A stretch of 64,000 nucleotides of DNA from Halostagnicola larsenii XH-48. GTDB lineage: Archaea > Halobacteriota > Halobacteria > Halobacteriales > Natrialbaceae. The notes beneath the pieces are model-generated. The model did no database searches, was not told where the DNA came from, and saw nothing but the letters and a program-made list of their open reading frames with translations. Each line of letters starts with the position of its first letter. The stretch's first letter is position 1. Location of the stretch: positions 1,612,001-1,676,000 of the forward strand of contig NZ_CP007055.1 of assembly GCF_000517625.1 (NCBI RefSeq). Direction: 5' to 3'. This document shows positions 29,458 through 50,512 of this stretch, piece after piece. Made by a program: the position numbers and the translations under genes.

Positions 29458-30291
29458 TCAGGCCGTAAGCAGCGCCACGCCACCACCGCCGACGATGGCT
29501 AAGCCGCCGAGGCCGAAACAGACGATCCAAAAGGGAATGCGCTCGACGACCCGCATCAAGAGTCCGATCGTCGCGTAACCGACGACCGCACTCGTTGCGA
29601 TGGCGACGGCGGCCATCTCGAGGCCGATCCCCGGAACCCCGCCTTCGGTGACGAAGATCAACACGCCTGCAGCGATTCCCGCGGGGATCGAGAGCAGGAA
29701 GGAGAGTCGAAACGCGGAGGGTGCCTGATACGAGCGAAAGAGCAGGGTGCTCGTCGTCACACCCGAACGCGAAACGCCGGGCAGGATCGAAAGCCCCTGA
29801 ATTCCGCCGACGATAACCGCGTCTCGGAGCGTTGGCTCCGTTCGATCCGCGAGATCCGTCGACTTCGAGGCGAGTTCTAGCACGCCGGTCAACACGAGGA
29901 GGACGCCGATGATCGCGATGAACAGGCCGCCGCGGAGTTCGCTGGCGATGTCGACCGCGAGAAAGTAGATCGGAAGGCCGATCGCCCCCGTCGCGATACT
30001 CGCGACGACGACGAACGTCGTCACCGCGTTCTGCCCGGTAAACGCCGACCGGGGGCGCCATTGGGGAACGGCCTCGAGACTCCTCCCGATCTCCTCGCGG
30101 TAGTAAAGCGTTGCCGAGAGCGTCGTTCCGAACTGCAAGAACAGCGCGAGTTGCAGGGCGTTATCTGGCGAGATGTCGAACAGCGTGAGAAACAGCGAGA
30201 GGTTCCCCTGCGAGGAGACCGGGAGCCACTCGACGACGCCCTGGACGATCCCGGCGAGGATCGCGACGAGGAGGTCCCAGTAATCGGTCAT
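29458..30291 (-). CDS. uppP: Undecaprenyl/dolichyl-diphosphatase
   Basis: A 277-residue membrane phosphatase of the BacA/UppP family, which dephosphorylates polyprenyl diphosphates to recycle glycan carriers. VQGVVEWLPVSSQGNLSL near residue 15 contains the (E/Q)xxxE-like motif, and LSILPGVSRSGVTTSTLL near residue 155 is the PGxSRS motif. The ATG at 30291 overlaps the glmS stop by 4 nt (ATGA); a longer frame inside glmS is rejected. In archaea the substrate is probably dolichyl diphosphate used in N-glycosylation. Co-transcription with glmS and the glmU-like gene fits a cell-surface glycan role. Confidence 0.93.
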   Translation of the reverse strand: MTDYWDLLVAILAGIVQGVVEWLPVSSQGNLSLFLTLFDISPDNALQLALFLQFGTTLSATLYYREEIGRSLEAVPQWRPRSAFTGQNAVTTFVVVASIATGAIGLPIYFLAVDIASELRGGLFIAIIGVLLVLTGVLELASKSTDLADRTEPTLRDAVIVGGIQGLSILPGVSRSGVTTSTLLFRSYQAPSAFRLSFLLSIPAGIAAGVLIFVTEGGVPGIGLEMAAVAIATSAVVGYATIGLLMRVVERIPFWIVCFGLGGLAIVGGGGVALLTA

Positions 30292-32174
30292 TCGACGGTC
30301 ACGCTCTTGGCGAGGTTCCGCGGTTTGTCGATCGATCTCCCCATCTCGTTTGCCACCCAGTAGGCGATGAGCTGTAACTGGACGTTCGCGAGCACGGCGG
30401 CGCTGCATTCGTCGGTTTCGGGGATCCGGAGGACGTGATCCGCGTAGCGCTCGACGTCGGAAACGCCGTCGGTGACGACGACAACCGGTGCGTCTCGAGC
30501 CTCGACTTCCTTGATGTTCGAAATCGTCTTGCGGGCGGTCCCCCCGTCACCGGTCACGATCGCAAAGACCGGGGTGTCCTCGGTGACCAGCGCGAGCGGC
30601 CCGTGTTTCAGTTCGCCGGCCGCGAACCCCTCGGCGTGTTCGTAGGTAATCTCCTTGAACTTCAGCGCCCCCTCGAGCGCGACCGGGTGGTGCATCCCGC
30701 GTCCGATGAAGAAAAACGCCTGCGAGTCGACCAGTTCCGCGGCGATCGCCCGCGCACTCGAGGTGTCGAGTATCGTCTGTACCTGATCGGGAACGCGTCG
30801 CAGCGACTGGATGTCGTCGTGGGAGCTTCGACCGGTCAACGCGACGCTCAACAGCAACAGCGCGAGTTGCTGGCTGGCGAACGTCTTGGTCGCCGCGACG
30901 CCGATCTCCGGGCCGGCGCGAATGTACAGCGCGTGATCGGCCGCTCGAGCGGCCGAACTCCCGACGGTGTTGGTCACCGCGAGGGTCGTCGCGCCGGCGC
31001 GGTTTGCCTCCCGAAGTGCGCGTAGCGTGTCTGCCGTCTCCCCGCTCTGGGTGATCCCGACGACGAGCGACCCATCGTTCACCGGCACGCGGTCGGTCGT
31101 GAACTCGCTCGCGATGGTCGCCGTCGCAGGCGTCTCTTCCTGTTGCAATAGCGACGCCGCATAGAGCGCGGCGTGATACGAGGTTCCACAGGCAACGAAC
31201 TGCACCGGCGAAGCAAACTCCTGCTCGACGACCGCGTCGAGTTCCTCGAGCGTCACGCTCCCCTGCAGTTCGTTCACTCGCCCCCGAAGACACTGCCTGA
31301 GCGACGAGGGTTGCTCGTGAATCTCTTTGAGCATGTAGTGGTCGTAGCCGCTCTTACCGGTGTCATCGGCGTCCCAGTCGACGGTCTGGACTGCCTTCTC
31401 GAGAGCGTTTCCGTCCGAATCGGACACCTCCCAGCCCGAGCTATCGAGCCGAACGAACTCCTCGTCCTCGAGGTAGACGACCCGATCCGTGTGCTCGATG
31501 AACGCGGGGACGTCGCTCGCGAGGAAGTAGCCGCTCGCTCGTTCGGGAGCCTCGCCGGATGAGTCGCCCTCGAGACCGAGCACGAGCGGCGACTCCTTGC
31601 GCGTCGCGTACACCGTTTCGTCGCCTTCGAAAACGGCCGCGATCGCGTAACTTCCCTCGAGGCGGTCGATCGCGCGGCGAAACGCCCGTTCGCGATCGCC
31701 CCTGTCTCGCTCGCCCATTCGATCATCACCGTCTCCCGACCCGAGATAGCTCGCGATCAGGTGCGGGACGACTTCGGTGTCGGTTTCGCTCTCGAAGGTG
31801 ACACCGTCCGCTTCGAGTTCGTCGCGTAGCGTCCGATAGTTCTCGATGATCCCGTTGTGGACGATCGCGACGCGCTCGTCCGCGTCGGTGTGTGGATGGG
31901 CGTTCGTGTCGGTCGGCGGTCCGTGCGTGCTCCAGCGCGTGTGTCCGATACCGACCGCGGGGTCGCGAAGCGACCCGGTAGGCAGTGTGGACGTCAGCGA
32001 CTCGAGTTCGCCCTCGGCTTTGTACACGTCGAGTTCGCCGTTCGCGAGCGCGACGCCAGCGGAATCGTATCCCCGGTACTCGAGGGTCGAGAGCCCGTCG
32101 AGCAAGACGTCGATCGCATCGGGAGCGGTGGCGTCGCTCCCGTCCGAACCGACGTAGCCGATGATCCCACACAT
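30288..32174 (-). CDS. glmS: Glutamine-fructose-6-phosphate aminotransferase (isomerising)
   Basis: A 628-residue two-domain enzyme making glucosamine-6-phosphate. The N-terminal glutaminase has Cys2 as nucleophile (MCGIIGYVG), HTRWSTHG and HNGIIENY. Two SIS domains follow, with VACGTSYHAAL, ITQSGETADTL and the late EITYEHAEGFAAGELKHGP. The extreme C-terminus DKPRNLAKSVTVE is the conserved active-site tail. A short acidic insertion lies near residues 145-160. It sits 2 nt after the glmU-like gene and overlaps uppP, so the three form one operon. Confidence 0.97.
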   Translation of the reverse strand: MCGIIGYVGSDGSDATAPDAIDVLLDGLSTLEYRGYDSAGVALANGELDVYKAEGELESLTSTLPTGSLRDPAVGIGHTRWSTHGPPTDTNAHPHTDADERVAIVHNGIIENYRTLRDELEADGVTFESETDTEVVPHLIASYLGSGDGDDRMGERDRGDRERAFRRAIDRLEGSYAIAAVFEGDETVYATRKESPLVLGLEGDSSGEAPERASGYFLASDVPAFIEHTDRVVYLEDEEFVRLDSSGWEVSDSDGNALEKAVQTVDWDADDTGKSGYDHYMLKEIHEQPSSLRQCLRGRVNELQGSVTLEELDAVVEQEFASPVQFVACGTSYHAALYAASLLQQEETPATATIASEFTTDRVPVNDGSLVVGITQSGETADTLRALREANRAGATTLAVTNTVGSSAARAADHALYIRAGPEIGVAATKTFASQQLALLLLSVALTGRSSHDDIQSLRRVPDQVQTILDTSSARAIAAELVDSQAFFFIGRGMHHPVALEGALKFKEITYEHAEGFAAGELKHGPLALVTEDTPVFAIVTGDGGTARKTISNIKEVEARDAPVVVVTDGVSDVERYADHVLRIPETDECSAAVLANVQLQLIAYWVANEMGRSIDKPRNLAKSVTVE

Positions 32175-32176
32175 TC

Positions 32177-33349
32177 CTATCGGACCTCCGTCTCGGACTC
32201 GACCGAACCGCGAACCGTCGTTCCCGCATGTATCGTCGCCTCGGAACCGACGATGGTCCCGGGGGCGTACGTGACGCCGCCCTCGTCTGTCGTCCGATCG
32301 GCGAGCAACGCGCCCAGTCGCTGTCCTTCGTGGACGGTCCTCCCGACGCGGACATCGCTAGGGCCGCCGATCACAGTGGACCCGACCCCGATTTCGACGC
32401 CGCGGCCGGTTACGCAGTCGAGGACGGTCGCGTTCGGTCCGATTCGGGTGTCCGAATCGACGACGCTGTTCTCGAGGGTCGCGTTCGGTCCGATAGTGAC
32501 GTTGTGTCCGAGCGAGACGTACGGCCCGACGACCGCGCCCGGACCGATCACGCAGTCGGGGGAGACGATTGCCGGCTCGACGATGGTGGCCGACTCGTGA
32601 ACCTGTGCGGAGGGAGACACGGCGTTCTCGATTGTCCCTGTATCGAACAGCGTTTCGGCGACCTCGAGGAGGTCCCACGGATACGTCGCGTCGATCCACA
32701 TCCCCCCGGTTTCGGCCGCGTTGACCGTCTTCCCGCGCTCGAGTAGCAGCGAGAGGCCGTCGACCAACGAGTACTCCCCATCACGCGGATCGACGGCCGT
32801 GACGATGTCGATCGCGTCCGGTTCCAGCACGTAGACGCCCGCGTTCAGTCGGTAGCTCCGATCGTCCGTCGGGTTCTCGACGAGTTCTGCGACGGTACGG
32901 TCCGAGTCGACGATGACGCCGCCGTACGCCGTAACGTCGCTGGCCGCGATGACGCCGATGGTTCCGGCGGCACCCTCGTCGTGGCGGTCGATCGTGTCCT
33001 GAACGATCGACGCGTCGATCAACTGGTCGCCGTTGACGACGAGCGACGGTTCGTCGACGGTCGGCAGCGCGGCCTCGAGCGCGTGTGCGCTGCCGAGTTG
33101 TTTGTTCTGAATCGCGTACTCGATCGGAACGTCTCGGTAACTCGATCCGAAATGGGACTGGACGGAGGTGCGCCCGTAGCCGACGACCATCGTCAGCCGC
33201 TCGATACCGGCCTCGATGAGTTCGTCGAAGACGTGCTCGAGGATCGGTTTCGTCGCGGCGGGCAACATCGGCTTGGGCCGGTGTCTGGTCAGCGGCCGAA
33301 GGCGAACGCCCTCGCCCGCGGCCAGCACGATCGCGGATCGAACGGTCAT
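32177..33349 (-). CDS. glmU: GlmU-like sugar-1-phosphate nucleotidylyltransferase/acetyltransferase
   Basis: A 390-residue bifunctional enzyme. The N-terminal nucleotidyltransferase domain opens with IVLAAGEGVRLRPLTRHRPKPML, the nucleotide-binding loop and catalytic Lys. The C-terminal half is a left-handed beta helix of hexapeptide repeats (IVSPDCVIGPGAVVGPYVSL, then NVTIGPNATLENSVVD). Archaeal enzymes of this design make UDP-GlcNAc or dTDP-sugars from glucosamine-1-phosphate. The neighbouring glmS favours amino-sugar nucleotides here. It is the first gene of the operon and its ATG lies 174 nt from the divergent TatD-like gene. Confidence 0.92.
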   Translation of the reverse strand: MTVRSAIVLAAGEGVRLRPLTRHRPKPMLPAATKPILEHVFDELIEAGIERLTMVVGYGRTSVQSHFGSSYRDVPIEYAIQNKQLGSAHALEAALPTVDEPSLVVNGDQLIDASIVQDTIDRHDEGAAGTIGVIAASDVTAYGGVIVDSDRTVAELVENPTDDRSYRLNAGVYVLEPDAIDIVTAVDPRDGEYSLVDGLSLLLERGKTVNAAETGGMWIDATYPWDLLEVAETLFDTGTIENAVSPSAQVHESATIVEPAIVSPDCVIGPGAVVGPYVSLGHNVTIGPNATLENSVVDSDTRIGPNATVLDCVTGRGVEIGVGSTVIGGPSDVRVGRTVHEGQRLGALLADRTTDEGGVTYAPGTIVGSEATIHAGTTVRGSVESETEVR

Positions 33350-42504: not shown

Positions 42505-43341
42505 TTACGCCAGCGTCGACTCGAGATAACTGATCTGCTCTGGGTTCCCGAAGTAGGCGGGAACGTGCTCGTGGAGTTCTGCCGGTGTGCGGTCGAGGAT
42601 CGATTCTTGGCCCGTTGACGAGCGGCCACCTGCGGTTTCGACGATGTGTGCGATCGGGTTAGCTTCGTACTGGAGCCGAAGGTCGCCGTTCGGACTCGAC
42701 GACCGCTCGGGGTAGCCAAGCAGACCGCCGTTGACGAGCAAATGGTTGATATCTGCGACCATCGCGCCCGTATATCGGAGTTTGTAGTCGCGATGGAGCT
42801 CACGCCAGCAGTCCTCGACAGCCTCCGGCCACTCGTTTGTCGAGCCGGCGAACCCGCAAATTTCGCCCTCCGCGGGGATGGTCACCGGACTCGAGTCGAC
42901 GATCGCTCCATCGTCGACGACGTATCGAGTCACCGTCTCATCGATAGCGGCGGTGATCGTTGCAAACGGTCCGTAGAGCACCACCATACTGGCGATGAGA
43001 TCGCGACCGCTCGCCGGAAGCGACCCGTTGTAAACCCCGACGACAGTTCCGACGATGTTGTTCGAGCGGAGGTTCGACGACCCATCGAGCGGGTCGATGG
43101 CGACGCTGTACCCGTCACCGACGTCTTCGACGCGTTTTCGTTCTTCACTGGCAAACGCACCGACCGCCTCGAGCGGGGCCAACTGCTCACGGAAGAGCTG
43201 GTCGATCTGCCGATCCGCGGCTGACTGGACGTCACCGCTGGGATTTTCGTTCCTCGTCTTCTCGCGGCCGTCCCGAAACTCCGCGCGAACGTGCGGTACG
43301 ACTGCTGCCAACGCATCGACGATGGACTGTCTCTCGCTCAT
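42505..43341 (-). CDS. fbp: Class I fructose-1,6-bisphosphatase
   Basis: A 278-residue gluconeogenic phosphatase. Metal and phosphate sites are EERKRVEDV and VAIDPLDGSSN near residue 83; GFAGSTNEW, YTGAMVADINHLLVNGG and YEANPIAHIVETAGG near 235 complete the class I pattern. The ATG at 43341 is chosen over a GTG 9 nt upstream. It lies 85 nt after ptfB on the same strand and looks like the last gene of the fructose PTS operon, an odd place because its reaction opposes fructose breakdown. Confidence 0.93.
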   Translation of the reverse strand: MSERQSIVDALAAVVPHVRAEFRDGREKTRNENPSGDVQSAADRQIDQLFREQLAPLEAVGAFASEERKRVEDVGDGYSVAIDPLDGSSNLRSNNIVGTVVGVYNGSLPASGRDLIASMVVLYGPFATITAAIDETVTRYVVDDGAIVDSSPVTIPAEGEICGFAGSTNEWPEAVEDCWRELHRDYKLRYTGAMVADINHLLVNGGLLGYPERSSSPNGDLRLQYEANPIAHIVETAGGRSSTGQESILDRTPAELHEHVPAYFGNPEQISYLESTLA

Positions 43342-43426
43342 CAATGCCACCCGCTCATCGAGGAGTACGGTTCGTTCCTCGAGATGGACACTGCGTCCGT
43401 ATTCGATTCAGCTTGGGGCATCTTCC

Positions 43427-43888
43427 TCACGAAAATAGCCTCCGGAGACGCGCGAAGAGGCCTTTCGATGGGTCACCCCCGAGCTGTTCGAGTTCGGGAT
43501 CGCTCGTTGCTGTCGTCGAAGTCTCCTCGCCCGTCTCCACGGATGCGTCACTTTCGGCATCCTCGGTGCTACTGGTTTCGCTACCGTCGGCTCGTTGAAT
43601 CGCTTGCGCGATCAGCCCTTCGGCGTCGTTCACTCCGTCCTTGACGGTTCCCTCGACGAGCGGTTTGCCGTCGAATCGATCCTGATTGACGGCCGTATCC
43701 GCGGCGATGATAACGGCATCGGCGTCGTCGATATCGTCCGCCGTGAGCTCGTTTTCGGCACCCATCGCGCCCTGAACCTCGACTTTGATGTCGTGGCCCT
43801 GCTCCTGGGCGGTGGTCTCTATGTTCTCTGCTGCCATCTGGCTGTGTGCGATACCGGTCGGACAGGACGTGACTGCGACGAGTTTCAT
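43427..43888 (-). CDS. ptfB: PTS fructose-specific EIIB component
   Basis: A 153-residue cytoplasmic protein that passes phosphate to fructose. VAVTSCPTGIAHSQMAAE holds the phosphorylated Cys9. ADAVIIAADTAV and FDGKPLVEG complete the EIIB-Fru domain, about 100 residues long. The rest is an acidic Ser/Glu tail ending GLFARLRRLFS. It overlaps ptsI by 4 nt and is the fifth of the tightly packed PTS genes. Confidence 0.95.
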   Translation of the reverse strand: MKLVAVTSCPTGIAHSQMAAENIETTAQEQGHDIKVEVQGAMGAENELTADDIDDADAVIIAADTAVNQDRFDGKPLVEGTVKDGVNDAEGLIAQAIQRADGSETSSTEDAESDASVETGEETSTTATSDPELEQLGGDPSKGLFARLRRLFS

Positions 43889-45585
43889 TGGTTGGAGTTG
43901 TTGCGTTGAATTCGGTCGATAACGTGATCTCTGGTCGATGCCTCGAGCGCTCGTGTGACATTCTCGGCCGCCGTCTCAGTATCGATCGACTGGACGGTCG
44001 CTTTGACGTCCGGGACGGTGACCGCGCTCATGCTGAGTTCATCGAGCCCCAGGCCGACGAGGAGTTCGGTTAGCTCCGGATTCCCGGCCATCTCCCCACA
44101 CATACCAACCCACGCGTCGTTTTCGTGGGCCGCTTTGATGGTCCGAGAGATGGCCCGTAACACGGCCGGTCGACGTGGATCCCGGAGGTCCGCAACGCGT
44201 TCGTTCTCGCGCGCCGCGGCCATAACGTACTGGGTGAGATCGTTCGTCCCGATACTGAGGAACTCGACCTGCTCGGCGAGTTCCGGCGCGGCGAAGACGG
44301 CGCCGGGGGTTTCGATCATCACGCCGAGTTCGGGGATCGCGTAGTCGATACCTTCCTCTTCGAGCGTGTTCGCGATCCTCTCGACCGTCTCGAGTGCGGC
44401 AACGAGTTCCTTGGGTGTCGCGACGACCGGGAACATGATCGACAGGCAGCCATCCCCGTCCGCGGCCGCCCGAAACAGCGCGCGAAGCTGTGTCTCGAAT
44501 AGGTCGGCGTCGGGACCGAGCGATCGTCGGATCCCCCGCTCGCCGAGAAACGGGTTCTCCTCTTCGGGCAGATCGAGGTAGGGAATCGGCTTGTCCCCGC
44601 CGATATCGAGCGTCCGGACGACGACGCGGCCATCCGGGAACGTCTCGAGGGCCTCCCTGTACGCTTCGTACTGTTCGGTTTCGTCCGGTGCCTGCTCGCG
44701 GTCGAGGAACAGGAACTCCGTGCGGTAGAGGCCGATACCGTCGGCCCCCTGCGCTTTCGCGTCCTCGAGTTCGGCGGGCTGGCCGACGTTCGCGGCGATT
44801 TCGATGCCAGTTCCGTCGGCGGTCGTTACCGCCTCCTCGTGGATTTCCACCTGGTGGGCGGTCTGTGCCGATTCCCGGCGCTCGTCGCTCGGGTCGACGA
44901 CGAGTTCGCCAGCGTCGCCGTCGACGACGACCGTCGCGTCAGTTTCGACATCGTGGAGTTCGTCACCGACGCCGACGACGGCGGGTAGCGCGAGCGAGCG
45001 AGCGAAGATCGCCGCGTGCGAGGTTCGCCCGCCGGTTACGGTGGCGAACCCGGCGACGCGGTCGGGGTCGAGCTGTGCCGTGTCGCTCGGCGTGAGTCGA
45101 TCGGCGAGCACGACCGATCCCTCGGGGAGACTCTCGAGATCGACTCGGTCGTCGTCGGTGAGGAGTCGAACGAGCCGATCGCGAACGTCGCGCAGGTCGT
45201 CGGCCCGCTCGGCCATCCGCCCGTCCATGCCCTCGAACTGTTCGATCGGGTCGGCGAATGCCCGCTGGACGGCGTTCTCTGCCGGAAGTTCGTCATCGAT
45301 CGCACGCTCGACACCGTCCTCAATCTGCGGGTCCTCGAGGAACTGCACGTGCGCATCGAAGACCTCGGCTTCCTGCTCGCCGACGCGTTCGGCGGTCCGT
45401 TCCCGTTCGGCTTCTAATTCGTCTCGAGCGGTTTCGCGTGCGTCTTCGAACCGTTCGCGCTCGTCCTCTTGATCGACAGAAACTGAATTCGGATCCGGAA
45501 GATCGGTCGACGTGCTATACCAGACGACCGTTCCCACGTCGGAGCGCGGCGTCGCCCCCGTTCCGGTGAGAGTGCGTTCTGCCAT
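43885..45585 (-). CDS. ptsI: PTS phosphoenolpyruvate-protein phosphotransferase (enzyme I)
   Basis: A 566-residue enzyme I, which takes phosphate from PEP and gives it to HPr. The phosphorylated His is in GGRTSHAAIFAR (H190). The PEP-binding barrel shows GIGLYRTEFLFLDR, RTLDIGGDKP and LSIGTNDLTQY, and CGEMAGNPE carries the active-site Cys. The ATG at 45585 is chosen because it lies just after the ptsH stop (45590); a start at 45603 would overlap ptsH by 14 nt. It is complete, unlike truncated archaeal relatives of PEP synthase. Confidence 0.95.
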   Translation of the reverse strand: MAERTLTGTGATPRSDVGTVVWYSTSTDLPDPNSVSVDQEDERERFEDARETARDELEAERERTAERVGEQEAEVFDAHVQFLEDPQIEDGVERAIDDELPAENAVQRAFADPIEQFEGMDGRMAERADDLRDVRDRLVRLLTDDDRVDLESLPEGSVVLADRLTPSDTAQLDPDRVAGFATVTGGRTSHAAIFARSLALPAVVGVGDELHDVETDATVVVDGDAGELVVDPSDERRESAQTAHQVEIHEEAVTTADGTGIEIAANVGQPAELEDAKAQGADGIGLYRTEFLFLDREQAPDETEQYEAYREALETFPDGRVVVRTLDIGGDKPIPYLDLPEEENPFLGERGIRRSLGPDADLFETQLRALFRAAADGDGCLSIMFPVVATPKELVAALETVERIANTLEEEGIDYAIPELGVMIETPGAVFAAPELAEQVEFLSIGTNDLTQYVMAAARENERVADLRDPRRPAVLRAISRTIKAAHENDAWVGMCGEMAGNPELTELLVGLGLDELSMSAVTVPDVKATVQSIDTETAAENVTRALEASTRDHVIDRIQRNNSNQ

Positions 45586-45589
45586 CGGT

Positions 45590-45880
45590 TTAACTGTCGA
45601 CATCTGCGATCTCGTCCTCGGGTGTGGTCAGAACACGCTCGAGCGCATCGAGCGTCGCTTCTTCGTCGGGGCCGTCCGCGACGAGTCGAACCTCCTCGCC
45701 GGCTTCGGCACCGAGGCTGGTGACCGCGATCATGCTGCCGGCTGCAATGAGGTCGTCAGTATCGGGCCGGCCGACCTGTACGTCCGACTCGTGATCGTTG
45801 ACCGCCTCGACGAACTTCGCTGCCGGCCGAGCGTGCAATCCGGCCTCGGGAACGATCGTTACGGTTCGTTCGGTACTCAT
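45590..45880 (-). CDS. ptsH: PTS phosphocarrier protein HPr
   Basis: A 96-residue HPr. EAGLHARPAAKFVEA contains the active-site His16. AAGSMIAVTSLGAEAGEEV aligns with the KSIMGVMSLG region of bacterial HPr, so a serine is present at the Ser46-equivalent place. The C-terminal helix region is ATLDALERVL. It overlaps ptfA by 4 nt and precedes ptsI by 4 nt. Confidence 0.95.
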   Translation of the reverse strand: MSTERTVTIVPEAGLHARPAAKFVEAVNDHESDVQVGRPDTDDLIAAGSMIAVTSLGAEAGEEVRLVADGPDEEATLDALERVLTTPEDEIADVDS

Positions 45881-46353
45881 GCGACTGCCTCCGTGAGGAC
45901 GGCCTGTACGTCTTCGGGTGTCTCCGCGTCGTAGAGGGCGTCTCTCGTCTCGTCGTGCATGAGCGCTCTCGAGAGGGTGCTCAAGATCGAGAGGTGATCG
46001 TCCGCGCCGGACTCGGGGACGAGGATCATGAAAATGAGCCGTGCGGGCTCGCCGTCCATCGAGCCGAAATCGACGCCTGCCTCCGAACGGGTGAACGCCA
46101 CGGATGGCTCGCTGACGGCCTCCGTTTGTGCGTGAGGGATCCCGATACCCATGCCGACGCCGGTTGTCGTCTCCGCCTCGCGAGCGAGCAGCGCCTCGAG
46201 GGCCGTCTCTCGGTCGTCGACACGGCCTGCCTCGACGAGCAGGTCCAGGAGGTGTTCTATGCAGGCTTGTTTGTCTGCGGGCGGCGACTCGAGCGTGATG
46301 TGGTCGGTGGGTGCGAGGGTTTCGATTCGATCTTCGGTGAGTGTTTCAGTCAT
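45877..46353 (-). CDS. ptfA: PTS fructose-specific EIIA component
   Basis: A 158-residue EIIA of the fructose/mannitol class. VGMGIGIPHAQTEAV holds the phosphorylated His (H74), with RLIFMILVPESGADDHL and LSRALMHDE further on. It carries phosphate from HPr to EIIB. Its ATG is 46 nt downstream of the ptfC stop; the intervening bases form no clear terminator. Confidence 0.95.
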   Translation of the reverse strand: MTETLTEDRIETLAPTDHITLESPPADKQACIEHLLDLLVEAGRVDDRETALEALLAREAETTTGVGMGIGIPHAQTEAVSEPSVAFTRSEAGVDFGSMDGEPARLIFMILVPESGADDHLSILSTLSRALMHDETRDALYDAETPEDVQAVLTEAVA

Positions 46354-46399
46354 GGTGAGTCTGTTGTATACTGGTGAGTGATAGTTAAACGTCGGACGA

Positions 46400-47599
46400 T
46401 CAGTCGTTCGTGTGGGTCACTCGACTGGCTGACCCCGTTTCGGTATCGACGTCGGCGACCGTTTTCTCGAAGTCCGGTTTGATAGCCGTCGCGACGGTCG
46501 CGGTCACTATCGTGCCGAGTGCGATACACCCGAGGAAGACGAGCGCGTTGCTCGAGAGGAGGAACACGAAGATACCGCCGTGGGGCGCGGGCATGGTCAC
46601 GCCGAGCCAGAGCGCGGTTGCACCGGCGGTCGCGCTCCCGATCATACAGCTCGGAATGACGCGGAGCGGATCGGCCGCGGCGTAGGGGATCGCACCCTCG
46701 GTGATGAACGCGAGACCGAGCGGCACCGCCGCTTTGGCGTTCTCGTACATCTCGGCGGAGTACTTCTGGGGTGCGATGAAGTTCGAGAGCGCCAGGCCGA
46801 GCGGCGGCGTCATGCCGGCGATCATCACGGCGGCCATCGGCCCGAAAATCTGCTCGCTAACGAGCGCGGCGGCGAACACGTACGCGACTTTGTTGATGGG
46901 GCCGCCCATATCAGCCGCCATCATCGCCCCCAGAATCGCCCCGAGAAGGAGCGCGTTCGCTCCCGTCATGGAGCCGAGTACCGTCGTCAATGTGTCGTCG
47001 ATGATTGCGATCGGCACCCCCAATCCGACGATCACGAGCGGTGACAGAAGCGCGGTCGTGAACACCGGGATTATCAACACCGGCATCATGGGTTCGACGA
47101 GGGACGGCACCGACCAGTCCTTCATCCACCGAGCGACGTACCCGGCCAGAAGCCCCGCGACCAGTGCGCCGAGGAACCCGGCGGAGGCACCGTCTGCGCT
47201 AAAGCCGACGAGCGAGCCAGCGGCCTCGATGATCGCGGTTTGTTGGATCGCCCACGACAGGATGAAACCCGGTGCCAGCCCGGGCCGATCGGCGATTGCG
47301 TAGGCGATGTACGCCCCCAGAATGGGGACCATCATCGTCAAACCGAGCCCGCCGATTTCACCCAGATACCACGGAAGCGTTCCGGTCGATTGGAAGACCG
47401 TCTCCGTCGTCGCCCCCGCACCGGGCATCGTTATTCCGAAGACGGACTCTGGAAGTTCAGCGACCAAGAACGCCAGTGCCGTAAATATCCCCCCGATCGT
47501 GACGAACGGAATCATGAACGACACGCCGGTCATCACGTCCTCTTTGACCGTAGTGACGTGCGAACGGAGTGCGGTTTCTGCTTTGTCTGCTGGTGGCAT
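46400..47599 (-). CDS. ptfC: PTS fructose-specific EIIC permease
   Basis: A 399-residue membrane permease of the fructose family with about nine or ten helices. VMTGVSFMIPFVTIGGIFTAL opens the transmembrane part. MAADMGGPINKVAYVFAAAL and FITEGAIPYAAADPLRVI (the GITEGAIPFA-like signature) are diagnostic. It forms the channel through which fructose enters and is phosphorylated by PtfB. It starts after a 232-nt AT-rich spacer and probably has its own promoter (gattaatac about 25 nt upstream of the ATG). Confidence 0.95.
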   Translation of the reverse strand: MPPADKAETALRSHVTTVKEDVMTGVSFMIPFVTIGGIFTALAFLVAELPESVFGITMPGAGATTETVFQSTGTLPWYLGEIGGLGLTMMVPILGAYIAYAIADRPGLAPGFILSWAIQQTAIIEAAGSLVGFSADGASAGFLGALVAGLLAGYVARWMKDWSVPSLVEPMMPVLIIPVFTTALLSPLVIVGLGVPIAIIDDTLTTVLGSMTGANALLLGAILGAMMAADMGGPINKVAYVFAAALVSEQIFGPMAAVMIAGMTPPLGLALSNFIAPQKYSAEMYENAKAAVPLGLAFITEGAIPYAAADPLRVIPSCMIGSATAGATALWLGVTMPAPHGGIFVFLLSSNALVFLGCIALGTIVTATVATAIKPDFEKTVADVDTETGSASRVTHTND

Positions 47600-47831
47600 G
47601 GTCTATTTATCCTCTGTATTAATCAATATAGTCTTCGAATACGATTGTTTCTGGCTATAAAATATGGATAAAATATTGGCGCGTTCACGAAGTTTACCGG
47701 ACCTTCTACCGAAAACTCTCTCCAAATGTGTTAGTTTTGGCATGTAGTCGGATTCCGAACTCGAGCATCGATCGATCAGAGTCGGGCACACGTGCATCGG
47801 TGAGGTCAATTCGATCATAACTGATCGTGAG
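47600..47831 (-). promoter_or_regulatory. ptfC promoter region with direct repeats
   Basis: An AT-rich spacer between pfkB and ptfC. On the plus strand it has ATAAAATAT at 47657-47665 and again at 47668-47676, so the copies are one DNA turn (11 bp) apart, about 58-77 nt before ptfC. A TATA-like element lies nearer the gene. GlpR or another sugar regulator is a candidate binder. Confidence 0.5.
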
Positions 47832-48755
47832 CTATCTGGAGCAGTCGGCCGACACCGAAATGGCGACGCGATCGGTCGTCCCGACGAGTTCGTCGAGCGG
47901 CGGAATATCGGTTCCAGGAACCGAAACGACACGCGAAGCGACTGCAACGCCGGTTCGTAACGCCTCCCGGTCCGTCGCTCCGTCGTCGAGTGCAGCCAGA
48001 ACGCCCGCCAGCAGCGAATCGCCGGCACCGACCGTGTCGACGACCTCGGTCTCGAGCGCTGCCGCGTGGATGCACTCTTCCGGCGTCGACATGATCGCGC
48101 CGTCTGCACCCAGAGACGCGATAACCCGGTCGTACCCCATTCGACGAAGCGTCTCGACCGCGTCGTAACAGTCCTCGAGCGAGCGCACGGAGCAACCAGT
48201 CGCCGCCGCGAGTTCCTCGCGATTGGGTTTACACAGCGCGTACGACGCGTCGAGTGCTGCGAGTATGGATCCGCCGACGTCGACGACGGTCTCCCAGTCG
48301 CCGGTGCGGGCGATCCGATCGATCGCGTCGGGGCCGAGGCCCGGCGGCAGACTGCCGCCAACGACCACGGTGTCGGGTGCGTTTCGCTCGATCGTCTCGA
48401 GAAGGTCGTCGATGGCGTCCGCCGAAACCCGCGGTCCGTCGTGGTTGATCTTGAACTCCGCATCGTCGGTCAGGATCGTCGTATTGAGTCTGGTTCGACC
48501 GTCGATCTCGACGAAATCTCCCTCGATCTCGCCCGCGGACAACCGATCGCGGACGAACCGGCCGAGGAAATCGCCGACGACGCCCGTCGCGACGGTCTCG
48601 GTCTCGAGTTCGGCGAGATATTTCGAGACGTTGATCCCTTTTCCGCCGGGATCGACGCGAGCGGCGTTCGCCCGAGCGACCCGGTCAGTCTCGGGGAAGT
48701 CATCGACGGTCAGCGTGTGATCGACTGCCGGGTTGAGCGTCACCGTCAGAATCAC
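47832..48755 (-). CDS. pfkB: 1-phosphofructokinase (PfkB family)
   Basis: A 307-residue sugar kinase converting fructose-1-phosphate to fructose-1,6-bisphosphate. LTVTLNPAVDHTLTV starts the protein; PGGKGINVSKYLAELE is the first PfkB signature and VVDTVGAGDSLLAGVLAALDD the second, with the catalytic Asp near residue 253. KINHDGP and the NREEL loop fit the fructose-1-phosphate kinases. It overlaps the glpR stop by 4 nt, so the kinase is co-translated with its regulator. Confidence 0.95.
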   Translation of the reverse strand: MILTVTLNPAVDHTLTVDDFPETDRVARANAARVDPGGKGINVSKYLAELETETVATGVVGDFLGRFVRDRLSAGEIEGDFVEIDGRTRLNTTILTDDAEFKINHDGPRVSADAIDDLLETIERNAPDTVVVGGSLPPGLGPDAIDRIARTGDWETVVDVGGSILAALDASYALCKPNREELAAATGCSVRSLEDCYDAVETLRRMGYDRVIASLGADGAIMSTPEECIHAAALETEVVDTVGAGDSLLAGVLAALDDGATDREALRTGVAVASRVVSVPGTDIPPLDELVGTTDRVAISVSADCSR

Positions 48756-49519
48756 TGCTCGACCTCCTCAATTACCTCTACGTCGGCGGCGTCGAACGGT
48801 TCGTGCTGTTCGTCGGTCAGCTTCGTGTCGGTGATAAACACGTCGAGATCCTCGACCTCGGCAAATTTCACGAAACTCTGTTTGCCGAGTTTCGACCCGT
48901 CCGAGACGAGGACGACCCGTCCCGCGTTCTCGATCATGAGCGATTTGAGCCGGGCTTCGTCCTCGTTTGGCGTCATCAATCCCTGGGGCGGTTTGATCGC
49001 GTTCGTTCCCAGGAACAACACGTCGAAGTTCGTCCGTTCCATGAACCGCTCCGCGCTCGGCCCGGTGAGCGCTCGCGTCTCGTGGCGAAGCGATCCGCCG
49101 GTGAGTTTCACGTCGTTGGCCTGCTCGCCGAGCTCGAGGGCGAGAACGGGCGAGTTGGTGACCGCGAGGAACGACCTGTTCTCGGGGGCGTTCTTGGCGA
49201 CTTGCATCGTCGTCGAGCCGGCGTCGAAGAACACGACCTGATTCTCGGTGATTTCCTCGGCGGCTCGTTCGCCGATCCGCATCTTCCCGTCGAGGTTCTG
49301 GACTTCCTTTTGCCCGTAGGTCTGTTCGTTCCCGACGGTCGTTACCGGCACTGCGCCACCGTGTGAGCGCTCGATCAGCTTCCGGTCTTCTAAGTCGCTT
49401 AAGTCGCGGCGAATCGTCGCCTTCGAACAGTCCATCTCCGTGGCGAGATCGGCGACTGAACATTCACCCTCTTCGGACACCAACTCGACGATCTCGCGTT
49501 TTCTCACTGCGGGGAGCAT
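48752..49519 (-). CDS. glpR: DeoR/GlpR family transcriptional regulator
   Basis: A 255-residue repressor-type protein. The winged helix-turn-helix is RKREIVELVSEEG then CSVADLATEMDCSKATIRRD (residues about 6-42), with RSHGGAVP as the wing. The C-terminal sensor domain carries FFDAGSTTMQVAK and LTGGSLRHETRALTGP, which bind sugar phosphates. The ATG at 49519 gives the normal N-terminus; a start at 49558 would add 13 residues of no family match. In related haloarchaea GlpR represses fructose and glucose kinase genes, and the overlap with pfkB fits that role. Confidence 0.93.
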   Translation of the reverse strand: MLPAVRKREIVELVSEEGECSVADLATEMDCSKATIRRDLSDLEDRKLIERSHGGAVPVTTVGNEQTYGQKEVQNLDGKMRIGERAAEEITENQVVFFDAGSTTMQVAKNAPENRSFLAVTNSPVLALELGEQANDVKLTGGSLRHETRALTGPSAERFMERTNFDVLFLGTNAIKPPQGLMTPNEDEARLKSLMIENAGRVVLVSDGSKLGKQSFVKFAEVEDLDVFITDTKLTDEQHEPFDAADVEVIEEVEQ

Positions 49520-49655
49520 AGCTGTCTGTCTGCTCCCAACTACTGCGGATGCGTTCATATTTCTATCTGATTGTGTTCGTTTCTGCTCGAGTTCGTTTGG
49601 CGGGCGATACGAGAGTTGTGAGTACCGTTTGCACGATAGATCGCTCGAGTGACTG

Positions 49656-50444
49656 TCATTCGGCAAGCGCCTCGTCGGCCGTTGCCTCCTCGAAGACAAC
49701 CGCCTCGAGCGCGTCGAGGATTTGCTCGGGATTTTCGCGTTGCCAGACGTTGCGACCGACCGCCAGCCCGCTTGCACCTGCGTTCATCGCCGTCTCGACC
49801 AGCGAGAGGAACTCACGATCGTCGGTTTTGGAGCCGCCGCTGAGAACGACGTTGACGTCACCCGCCGCAGCGACCGCGTCAGCCATCGCCTGCCCGCTTC
49901 GCGGATACTTCACCTTCGCGATGTCCGCGCCCAGCTCGAGGGCGATTCGAGTCGCGTACGAGATAACCGACGGTTTGCGGTGTTCTTTGAGCGCCTGTCC
50001 GCGCGGATACGACCACATGGCAACCGGAACGTCGTGCTCGCGAGCCCGCTCTTGGACGTCCCGGAACTCCTCGAACATCTCCGTTTCGCGGTTGGTTCCC
50101 GGATACACCGTGTATCCGACCGCATCGGCACCGAGCTCGAGCGCGTAATCGACCGAACACGTCCGTGGCGAGTACGGTTCACCCATCCAGAGGCTGCTGG
50201 TACCGTTGAGCTTCGCCAGCAAATTTACGTCGTCGTCGTAGGACGGATAATAAGTCTCCGCCAGTCCTTTCTGGACTGCAAATCCGGTCACGGCGTCGTG
50301 CGTTGCCAGCTCGAAGACCGTCCTCGGGTCGAGTCGCTCGGGAACGTCCTCGAACGCAGTGGGCCCGTGCTCGAGTCCGTGATCGTGTGCGAGAATTATC
50401 GACTTGCCATCCCGTACGAGCGGTGTCTCAGTAAGTTGGCGCAT
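49656..50444 (-). CDS. fba: Class I fructose-1,6-bisphosphate aldolase (archaeal DhnA type)
   Basis: A 262-residue TIM-barrel Schiff-base aldolase. IILAHDHGLEHGPTAF opens the barrel. ELGADIAKVKYPRSG carries the probable Schiff-base lysine near residue 175, and NVVLSGGSKTDD is the phosphate-binding strand. Close paralogues make an aromatic amino-acid precursor instead, but its place directly before glpR-pfkB-ptf makes fructose-1,6-bisphosphate the likely substrate. The following 136-nt spacer separates it from glpR. Confidence 0.9.
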   Translation of the reverse strand: MRQLTETPLVRDGKSIILAHDHGLEHGPTAFEDVPERLDPRTVFELATHDAVTGFAVQKGLAETYYPSYDDDVNLLAKLNGTSSLWMGEPYSPRTCSVDYALELGADAVGYTVYPGTNRETEMFEEFRDVQERAREHDVPVAMWSYPRGQALKEHRKPSVISYATRIALELGADIAKVKYPRSGQAMADAVAAAGDVNVVLSGGSKTDDREFLSLVETAMNAGASGLAVGRNVWQRENPEQILDALEAVVFEEATADEALAE

Positions 50445-50477: not shown

Positions 50478-50512
50478 AGTATCGTTTATGATTATTTTCT
50501 ACTGAATTCAGT
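50478..50512 (-). promoter_or_regulatory. fba promoter with a 12-bp palindrome
   Basis: On the minus strand an AT-rich TATA-like block (aaaataatcataaa) lies about 35-50 nt before the fba ATG. Directly upstream of it is the perfect palindrome ACTGAATTCAGT (50501-50512), well placed for an activator. Confidence 0.45.

Follow-up and report, generated by a model that had tools for sequence, protein, structure and literature searches.

Results and discussion

Gene order and protein family

The stretch of DNA analysed here, called the window, comprises 64,000 nucleotides (nt) of Halostagnicola larsenii XH-48 (contig NZ_CP007055.1, positions 1,612,001 to 1,676,000) and contains fbp, a gene for a class I fructose-1,6-bisphosphatase (FBPase), directly behind the genes of a fructose phosphotransferase system (PTS). 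We propose that fbp is probably the last gene of a fructose-regulated unit, ptfC-ptfA-ptsH-ptsI-ptfB-fbp, and that it provides a second class I FBPase for growth on fructose. As the initial annotation of this DNA had stated, fbp lies 85 nt 3′ of ptfB in the same direction: in the map of open reading frames (ORFs) ptfB ends at 43427 and the ATG of fbp is at 43341, both on the minus strand, and the families of both genes were confirmed (Table 1). The genes that define a haloarchaeal fructose PTS cluster, namely those for 1-phosphofructokinase (1-PFK), GlpR, the fructose-specific enzymes IIA, IIB and IIC (EIIA, EIIB and EIIC), enzyme I (EI) and HPr, were all found together.

The same annotation had read the genes from glpR to fbp as one operon. 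The layout upholds this from ptfC to fbp, where the junctions between ptfC and ptfB are overlaps or 46 nt and the 85 nt before fbp are the longest of the unit. The glpR-pfkB part probably does not stand, since pfkB is split from ptfC by a 232-nt gap (47600–47831) with an operator-like motif of its own, so that the unit containing fbp would start at ptfC; a further 136 nt separate fba from glpR. The cluster probably consists of the ptfC-ptfA-ptsH-ptsI-ptfB-fbp unit beside glpR-pfkB and fba, and not of a single operon.

The product of fbp carries both the N- and the C-terminal FBPase domain (PF00316 and PF18913), each over the gathering score. Its AlphaFold2 model (pLDDT 91.6) matched pig and human FBPase with a TM-score of about 0.88 (by query length), and its fold also matched the E. 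coli enzyme.

PTS-linked FBPases among haloarchaea

The linkage was examined in a survey of 391 haloarchaeal genomes, in which the family and genus of the window are labelled f1 and g1. Nine window proteins were mapped on the surroundings of 112 ptfB places in 110 genomes; a search of genome contigs with the window FBPase confirmed no relatives. FBPases of the window's kind, here called PTS-type, amount to at least 27 genes among the matches listed, in 26 of the 391 genomes (families f1, f4 and f7), and more members, also in genomes without a PTS, may exist. All 26 genomes carry ptfB, compared with 110 of 391 overall (Fisher P = 4.5e-16, uncorrected for kinship and for ptfB-based discovery, several of the 27 genes, low scorers included, having been found via ptfB neighbourhoods). 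All but one of the 27 adjoin a fructose PTS, the exception being L051 in genome G127, whose PTS lies elsewhere. Specifically, fbp is co-linear with and 3′ of ptfB at 12 loci (the window, L032–L040, L045 and L047), convergent with ptfB at nine (seven fba-fbp pairs near ptfB, a pair 715 nt off in L054, and L042 without fba), and beside pfkB, on its far side, at five. At the remaining ptfB places of the 112 no fbp was found beside ptfB. Broken remains of a PTS-type fbp were observed next to ptfB in L072 (8938–9179, family f3) and L082 (9192–9484, family f2).

In a tree of 52 FBPases, the 26 PTS-linked sequences and that of L051 fell into one clade (support 100/100) and the remaining 25, here called housekeeping, into another; the sequences were a chosen sample (top similarity matches, ptfB neighbours and selected multi-copy genomes), from which matches spanning fewer than 220 query residues were dropped. 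Among the 19 housekeeping genes whose context was examined, 18 lie in fba-fbp pairs without a PTS and L053 lies in neither setting. When a profile of 23 PTS-type sequences was run on the 391 genomes, 23 genes in 22 genomes scored above 385 bits, all of the PTS-type clade; 22 of these adjoin a PTS, ptfB was found in 22 of the 22 genomes, and the next-scoring gene was a housekeeping one. Four PTS-type genes (in G302, G163, G328 and G117) fell below 385 bits, among the housekeeping scores.

The host genome holds another class I FBPase (C1:796561–797457), 47% identical to that of the window and directly 3′ of an fba gene. The PTS-linked fba and the aldolase gene of this housekeeping fba-fbp pair are paralogs, and thus fructose-linked copies exist for aldolase and FBPase alike. 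Class I FBPase matches occur in 384 of the 391 genomes of the class, with two or more in 64/110 ptfB-positive against 13/281 ptfB-negative genomes, a comparison that ignores the kinship of genomes and whose counts become 62 and 12 because G158, G249 and G255 show one match by profile search; within the window's family the figures are 19/28 and 4/73. The initial annotation had noted neither the housekeeping FBPase nor the paralogous fba, nor the active-site change of the clade described below, although the aldolase gene (49656–50444) lay within the coordinates that it covered.

Operator-like motif and promoter signals

The ptfC, glpR and fba upstreams of nine loci (class A) yielded a 20-bp operator-like motif, CAGAAACAATCATATTCRGA, which lies there 54–71 nt before the starts used. 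It heads the proposed fbp unit of the window, 54 nt before ptfC, an assignment that is partly circular because the training set included the window ptfC promoter. A relaxed pattern of the motif gave 8 matches in the window against 1.8 expected, three of which are the ptfC, glpR and fba promoters. Out of sample, the motif was found at 3/3 promoters of L047 (scores 20.6–23.7) and at −52 to −55 of the convergent fba-fbp unit in 7/7 loci (scores 16–26), L124 (fba cut by a contig end) and L042 (unit without fba) of the nine convergent loci being left out. These 7/7 represent conservation and not independent gain, as class A loci supplied the training set and the convergent fba genes are closely homologous to their fba. 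Upstream of housekeeping fba, p<0.05 was reached in 1/18 cases with a score of only 6.9, the set containing no pairs from ptfB-positive genomes that lack a PTS-type FBPase. In layout C, all 5 of the 5 fbp upstreams passed p<0.05, with low-scoring and far matches in L041 and L043 (−148 and −139); in scans upstream of fbp at L045, L051 and L040 no motif was seen.

The exact pattern gave 11 matches in the host genome against 1 for a reversed-pattern control, two of them being the ptfC and glpR sites. The regulon may extend beyond the fructose cluster, since further genome matches precede possible ORF starts: this holds for at least three more sites, and the other exact matches, judged by eye, appear to fall within ORFs or elsewhere. 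As judged by eye, the ORFs at these three sites are GNAT-like (L170, G000:C1:2548489–2548505), ornithine cyclodeaminase-like (L172, G000:C1:2653588–2653604) and a helix-turn-helix protein (L173, G000:C1:2698750–2698766), the match lying 62 nt before the ORF in L172 and about 60–90 nt before a possible start in the other two. GlpR and GfcR are both possible candidates for binding the motif.

A palindrome of the form TTACTA-TAGTAA, which we take to be like the TrmB site, precedes 10/18 housekeeping fba genes, among them that of the host, but 0/22 PTS-linked fba and 0/10 ptfC genes. No strict TrmB-like match was found upstream in the window cluster, and its fba and ptfC upstreams were not significant by a relaxed pattern. 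These matches suggest gluconeogenic, TrmB-like control of the housekeeping fba-fbp pair. In Haloarcula hispanica, fbp bears the top TrmB peak in chromatin immunoprecipitation and is activated by TrmB without glucose (PMC10817205; here and below, literature statements refer to excerpts of the cited papers). The TrmB-activated FBPases of Haloarcula hispanica and Halobacterium salinarum are class 1 fructose-bisphosphatases, as in the window (PMC10817205). The window copy differs in having neither a TrmB-like match nor the equivalent of Lys274 (see below) and in falling into another clade than the host's housekeeping enzyme, the Haloarcula gene not being in the tree.

If fbp had a promoter of its own in the 85-nt gap, it might be a gluconeogenic gene merely placed behind a PTS operon, and the initial annotation had likewise allowed for an unseen promoter and opposite control. 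No other junction of the ptfC unit is as long as this gap, haloarchaeal promoters may be without a clear TATA sequence (PMC10817205), and our measure of promoter presence, A/T richness in any 8 bases, is a rough one that separates promoters poorly from internal starts (glpR upstreams 6–8, internal pfkB starts 5–8 of 8). By this measure the ptfC and fba upstreams contain 7–8 A/T per 8, whereas the 10 co-linear fbp gaps examined (of 12) showed no AT-rich stretch (at most 6, range 4–6). In the window, no promoter-like sequence stands out between 43342 and 43426 by A/T content or operator score (Table 1), and opposite control is thus not supported. The lack of a strict TrmB-like match upstream of the cluster genes, the occurrence of the PTS-type clade with a PTS in 26/26 genomes and the fructose motif borne by the separate fba-fbp copies also speak against a promoter in the gap, which we regard as improbable.

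Active site of the PTS-type enzymes

The window FBPase retains the residues of the metal and phosphate sites as E66, E67, D83, D86, R189, Y190, Y210 and E226, the equivalents by alignment of SEE, DPLDGSSN, R243/Y244/Y264 and E280; among these, we take R243, Y244 and Y264 to be the 6-phosphate site. A role as fructose-1-phosphate phosphatase was considered and set aside, because these three equivalents are kept. The change lies at position 220, which aligns with Lys274 of mammalian FBPase: it is K in 25/25 housekeeping enzymes, whereas the 27 PTS-type enzymes have V (16), D (9, D220 of the window protein among them), N (1) or I (1). Mutants of Lys274 have a raised Km, and we treat this lysine as a functional and not as a defining residue of class I FBPases. 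In the pig enzyme it contacts O4′ of fructose 6-phosphate (F6P) (PMC5108348). As the lost residue is one that contacts the sugar, a change in the substrate affinity of the PTS-type enzymes is likely, and a change of substrate is possible.

Such a protein might have diverged from ordinary FBPases to become a low-affinity overflow valve at the high fructose 1,6-bisphosphate (FBP) of fructose growth, or might act on another sugar bisphosphate. The uniform difference at position 220 and the contact made by Lys274 lend this some weight; we nevertheless consider it doubtful in view of the kept metal and phosphate sites and of genome G020. This member of the window's genus has a single class I FBPase match, which is PTS-type and was placed beside the co-linear group with support 92/90. 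Its PTS cluster (L040 9570–14557) is decaying, with ptfC cut short, a glpR remnant in the 400-nt gap between ptfB and fbp, and no pfkB within the 19.5 kb read around L040; fbp is intact. G020 thus seems to manage with a PTS-type FBPase alone, and that it keeps only this type while the cluster decays suggests that the enzyme can act as a general FBPase.

Several observations weigh against fbp being a fructose-regulated FBPase gene. A PTS-type FBPase was not recognised in 84 of the 110 ptfB-positive genomes, and in G268 a fructose PTS is present (ptfB C1:95964–96443) with no class I FBPase match. The arrangement is therefore not required and other solutions exist. The copy in G127 is not PTS-linked and has no motif. 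In most two-copy ptfB-positive genomes the extra copy is not of the recognised PTS-type clade, two FBPases likewise occur in four genomes of genus g33 that are ptfB-negative, and two FBPases per genome would partly be a lineage trait. As for the regulatory signals, the motif reached p<0.05 in only 13/16 ptfC and glpR upstreams of layout B and in 12/19 ptfC, glpR and fba upstreams of another set (L047 included), and strict TrmB-like matches were found at glpR of L059 and ptfC of L157. Lastly, the window protein scored 309 bits with NF006786 (class 1 fructose-bisphosphatase), below the curated cut-off of 428 (housekeeping paralog 469); with this score, and with the Lys274 equivalent gone from all 27 PTS-type enzymes, FBPase kinetics are not to be assumed for it. 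In a separate observation, G050, G078 and G088, which like G268 belong to genus g47, likewise gave no class I FBPase match.

Proposed metabolic role of the PTS-linked FBPase

The reading that we prefer, fbp as the end of a fructose-regulated unit, gives the enzyme a place in fructose use. The PTS would make fructose 1-phosphate (F1P), PfkB would turn it into FBP, and the PTS-linked aldolase would send the bulk of the FBP to trioses. The window FBPase would divert a share of FBP to F6P and, via phosphoglucose isomerase (PGI), to glucose 6-phosphate (G6P), and the F6P and G6P so made would feed pentoses, amino sugars and glycans. The initial annotation had taken the FBPase reaction to run opposite to fructose use after PfkB; it branches off FBP and leaves the PfkB step unreversed. 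No PfkA-type 6-phosphofructokinase was found in the host genome by a search that gave a match in 9/14 control genomes and did not include ADP-dependent enzymes, so that FBPase would be a branch to F6P and not a futile reversal. A conflict between fructose use and FBPase through a futile cycle was accordingly judged unlikely, the more so as the 1-PFK of H. hispanica is 65-fold less efficient with F6P than with F1P (PMC11519228).

An FBP aldolase/phosphatase was likewise not found in the host genome, while PGI and 6-phosphogluconate dehydrogenase were. Among the enzymes sought, fructose that enters via F1P and FBP would hence reach F6P and G6P only by FBPase. A PTS-linked FBPase would be useful since there is no other fructose-to-F6P route among these enzymes and the housekeeping pair appears to be under gluconeogenic control. 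In haloarchaea, the oxidative pentose phosphate pathway is thought to be the source of pentoses (PMC3102087). The earlier suggestion that imported fructose becomes hexose for surface glycans by way of F6P can be followed in part: formation of F6P from fructose is likely, but glycans would be only one sink, as the oxidative pentose phosphate route also needs F6P/G6P.

A direct link to glmS had also been proposed, in which fbp would serve specifically to feed glmS with surface glycans as the end product. The substrate of GlmS is F6P, and glmS and a glmU-like ORF share both window and strand with fbp. They form another unit, however, 10.3 kb from fbp with other ORFs intervening, no operator-pattern match (up to one mismatch) was found near glmS, and F6P has further sinks; we therefore consider a dedicated feeder very unlikely and dropped the direct link. 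A second GlmS-like gene was seen by eye about 62 kb from the window glmS (L169 1282–2940, near G000:C1:1706495).

The scheme resembles known systems in part. In Haloferax volcanii, as in the window, fructose is converted by the PTS to F1P, by 1-PFK to FBP and then by an aldolase, and the PTS genes lie near those for 1-PFK and aldolase (PMC11519228, PMC3102087). The aldolase is of class II in H. volcanii but of the class I DhnA/DeoC type in the window, and the excerpts of these papers mention no FBPase beside the PTS, such as the window has. The khk-fruK-fbaB1 cluster of Haloarcula hispanica combines a class I aldolase with a 1-PFK acting on fructose-derived F1P, like the window, but has a ketohexokinase where the window has a PTS, and the words bisphosphatase and FBPase are absent from the main text of that report (PMC11519228). 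In Corynebacterium glutamicum, PTS and FruK yield FBP, and on fructose the pentose phosphate pathway receives F6P through FBPase; this is a bacterium with a 6-phosphofructokinase, and the excerpts describe no FBPase isozyme linked to a PTS (PMC8193941). In the open-licence literature, searched by title and abstract opening, no report of a PTS-linked haloarchaeal FBPase was found, key work on Haloferax being outside that scope.

Table 1 Features of the fructose PTS cluster and of the glmS region in the window
Feature	Position	Strand	Evidence and remarks
fbp, PTS-type class I fructose-1,6-bisphosphatase, putative last gene of unit	42505..43341	−	Pfam FBPase 3.9e-16, FBPase_C 1.3e-32; tree clade
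ptfB-fbp gap, 85 nt	43342..43426	−	no outstanding promoter element; operator score low (7.0, p 0.050)
ptfB, fructose EIIB	43427..43888	−	TIGR00829 9.2e-30
ptsI, EI	43885..45603	−	TIGR01417 1.1e-151
ptsH, HPr	45590..45880	−	NF041319 4.4e-40, 136 bits, slightly below cut-off 140
ptfA, fructose EIIA	45877..46353	−	TIGR00848 4.2e-35
ptfC, fructose EIIC, putative first gene of unit ending in fbp	46400..47599	−	TIGR01427 2.2e-95
operator-like motif, ptfC promoter, CAGAAACAATCGTATTCGAA	47634..47653	−	learnt motif; 54 nt before ptfC
pfkB, 1-phosphofructokinase	47832..48755	−	NF041320 (pfkB_Halo) 481 bits, cut-off 400
glpR, DeoR-type regulator	48752..49519	−	NF041397 (GlpR_Halo) 411 bits, cut-off 300; start set by NF041397 match
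operator-like motif, glpR promoter	49566..49585	−	learnt motif and pattern match
fba, class I (DhnA/DeoC-type) fructose-bisphosphate aldolase, PTS-linked copy	49656..50444	−	PF01791 1.3e-41; NF040816 198 bits, below cut-off 430
operator-like motif, fba promoter	50481..50500	−	learnt motif; one mismatch to pattern
glmS	30288..32174	−	10.3 kb from fbp, another unit
glmU-like ORF	32177..33349	−	read by eye; unit with glmS

Conclusions

FBPase is usually read as a sign of gluconeogenesis. In the present case gene order and operator-like sites tie a distinct isozyme to sugar uptake, which cautions against calling every haloarchaeal fbp gluconeogenic. For archaea growing on a PTS sugar whose entry point is FBP, the proposed branch offers a testable explanation of where F6P and G6P come from, and a sharp biochemical prediction follows from the loss of the lysine. 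Tentatively, the PTS-type enzymes might be an old, separate haloarchaeal FBPase subfamily that is bound to the fructose regulon and whose sugar site was remodelled, giving a low-affinity branch enzyme that would draw off F6P only at times when the pool of FBP is full from fructose glycolysis. If this were true, simultaneous glycolysis and hexose-phosphate supply would be solved by transcription and kinetics, and not by allostery, without a 6-phosphofructokinase.

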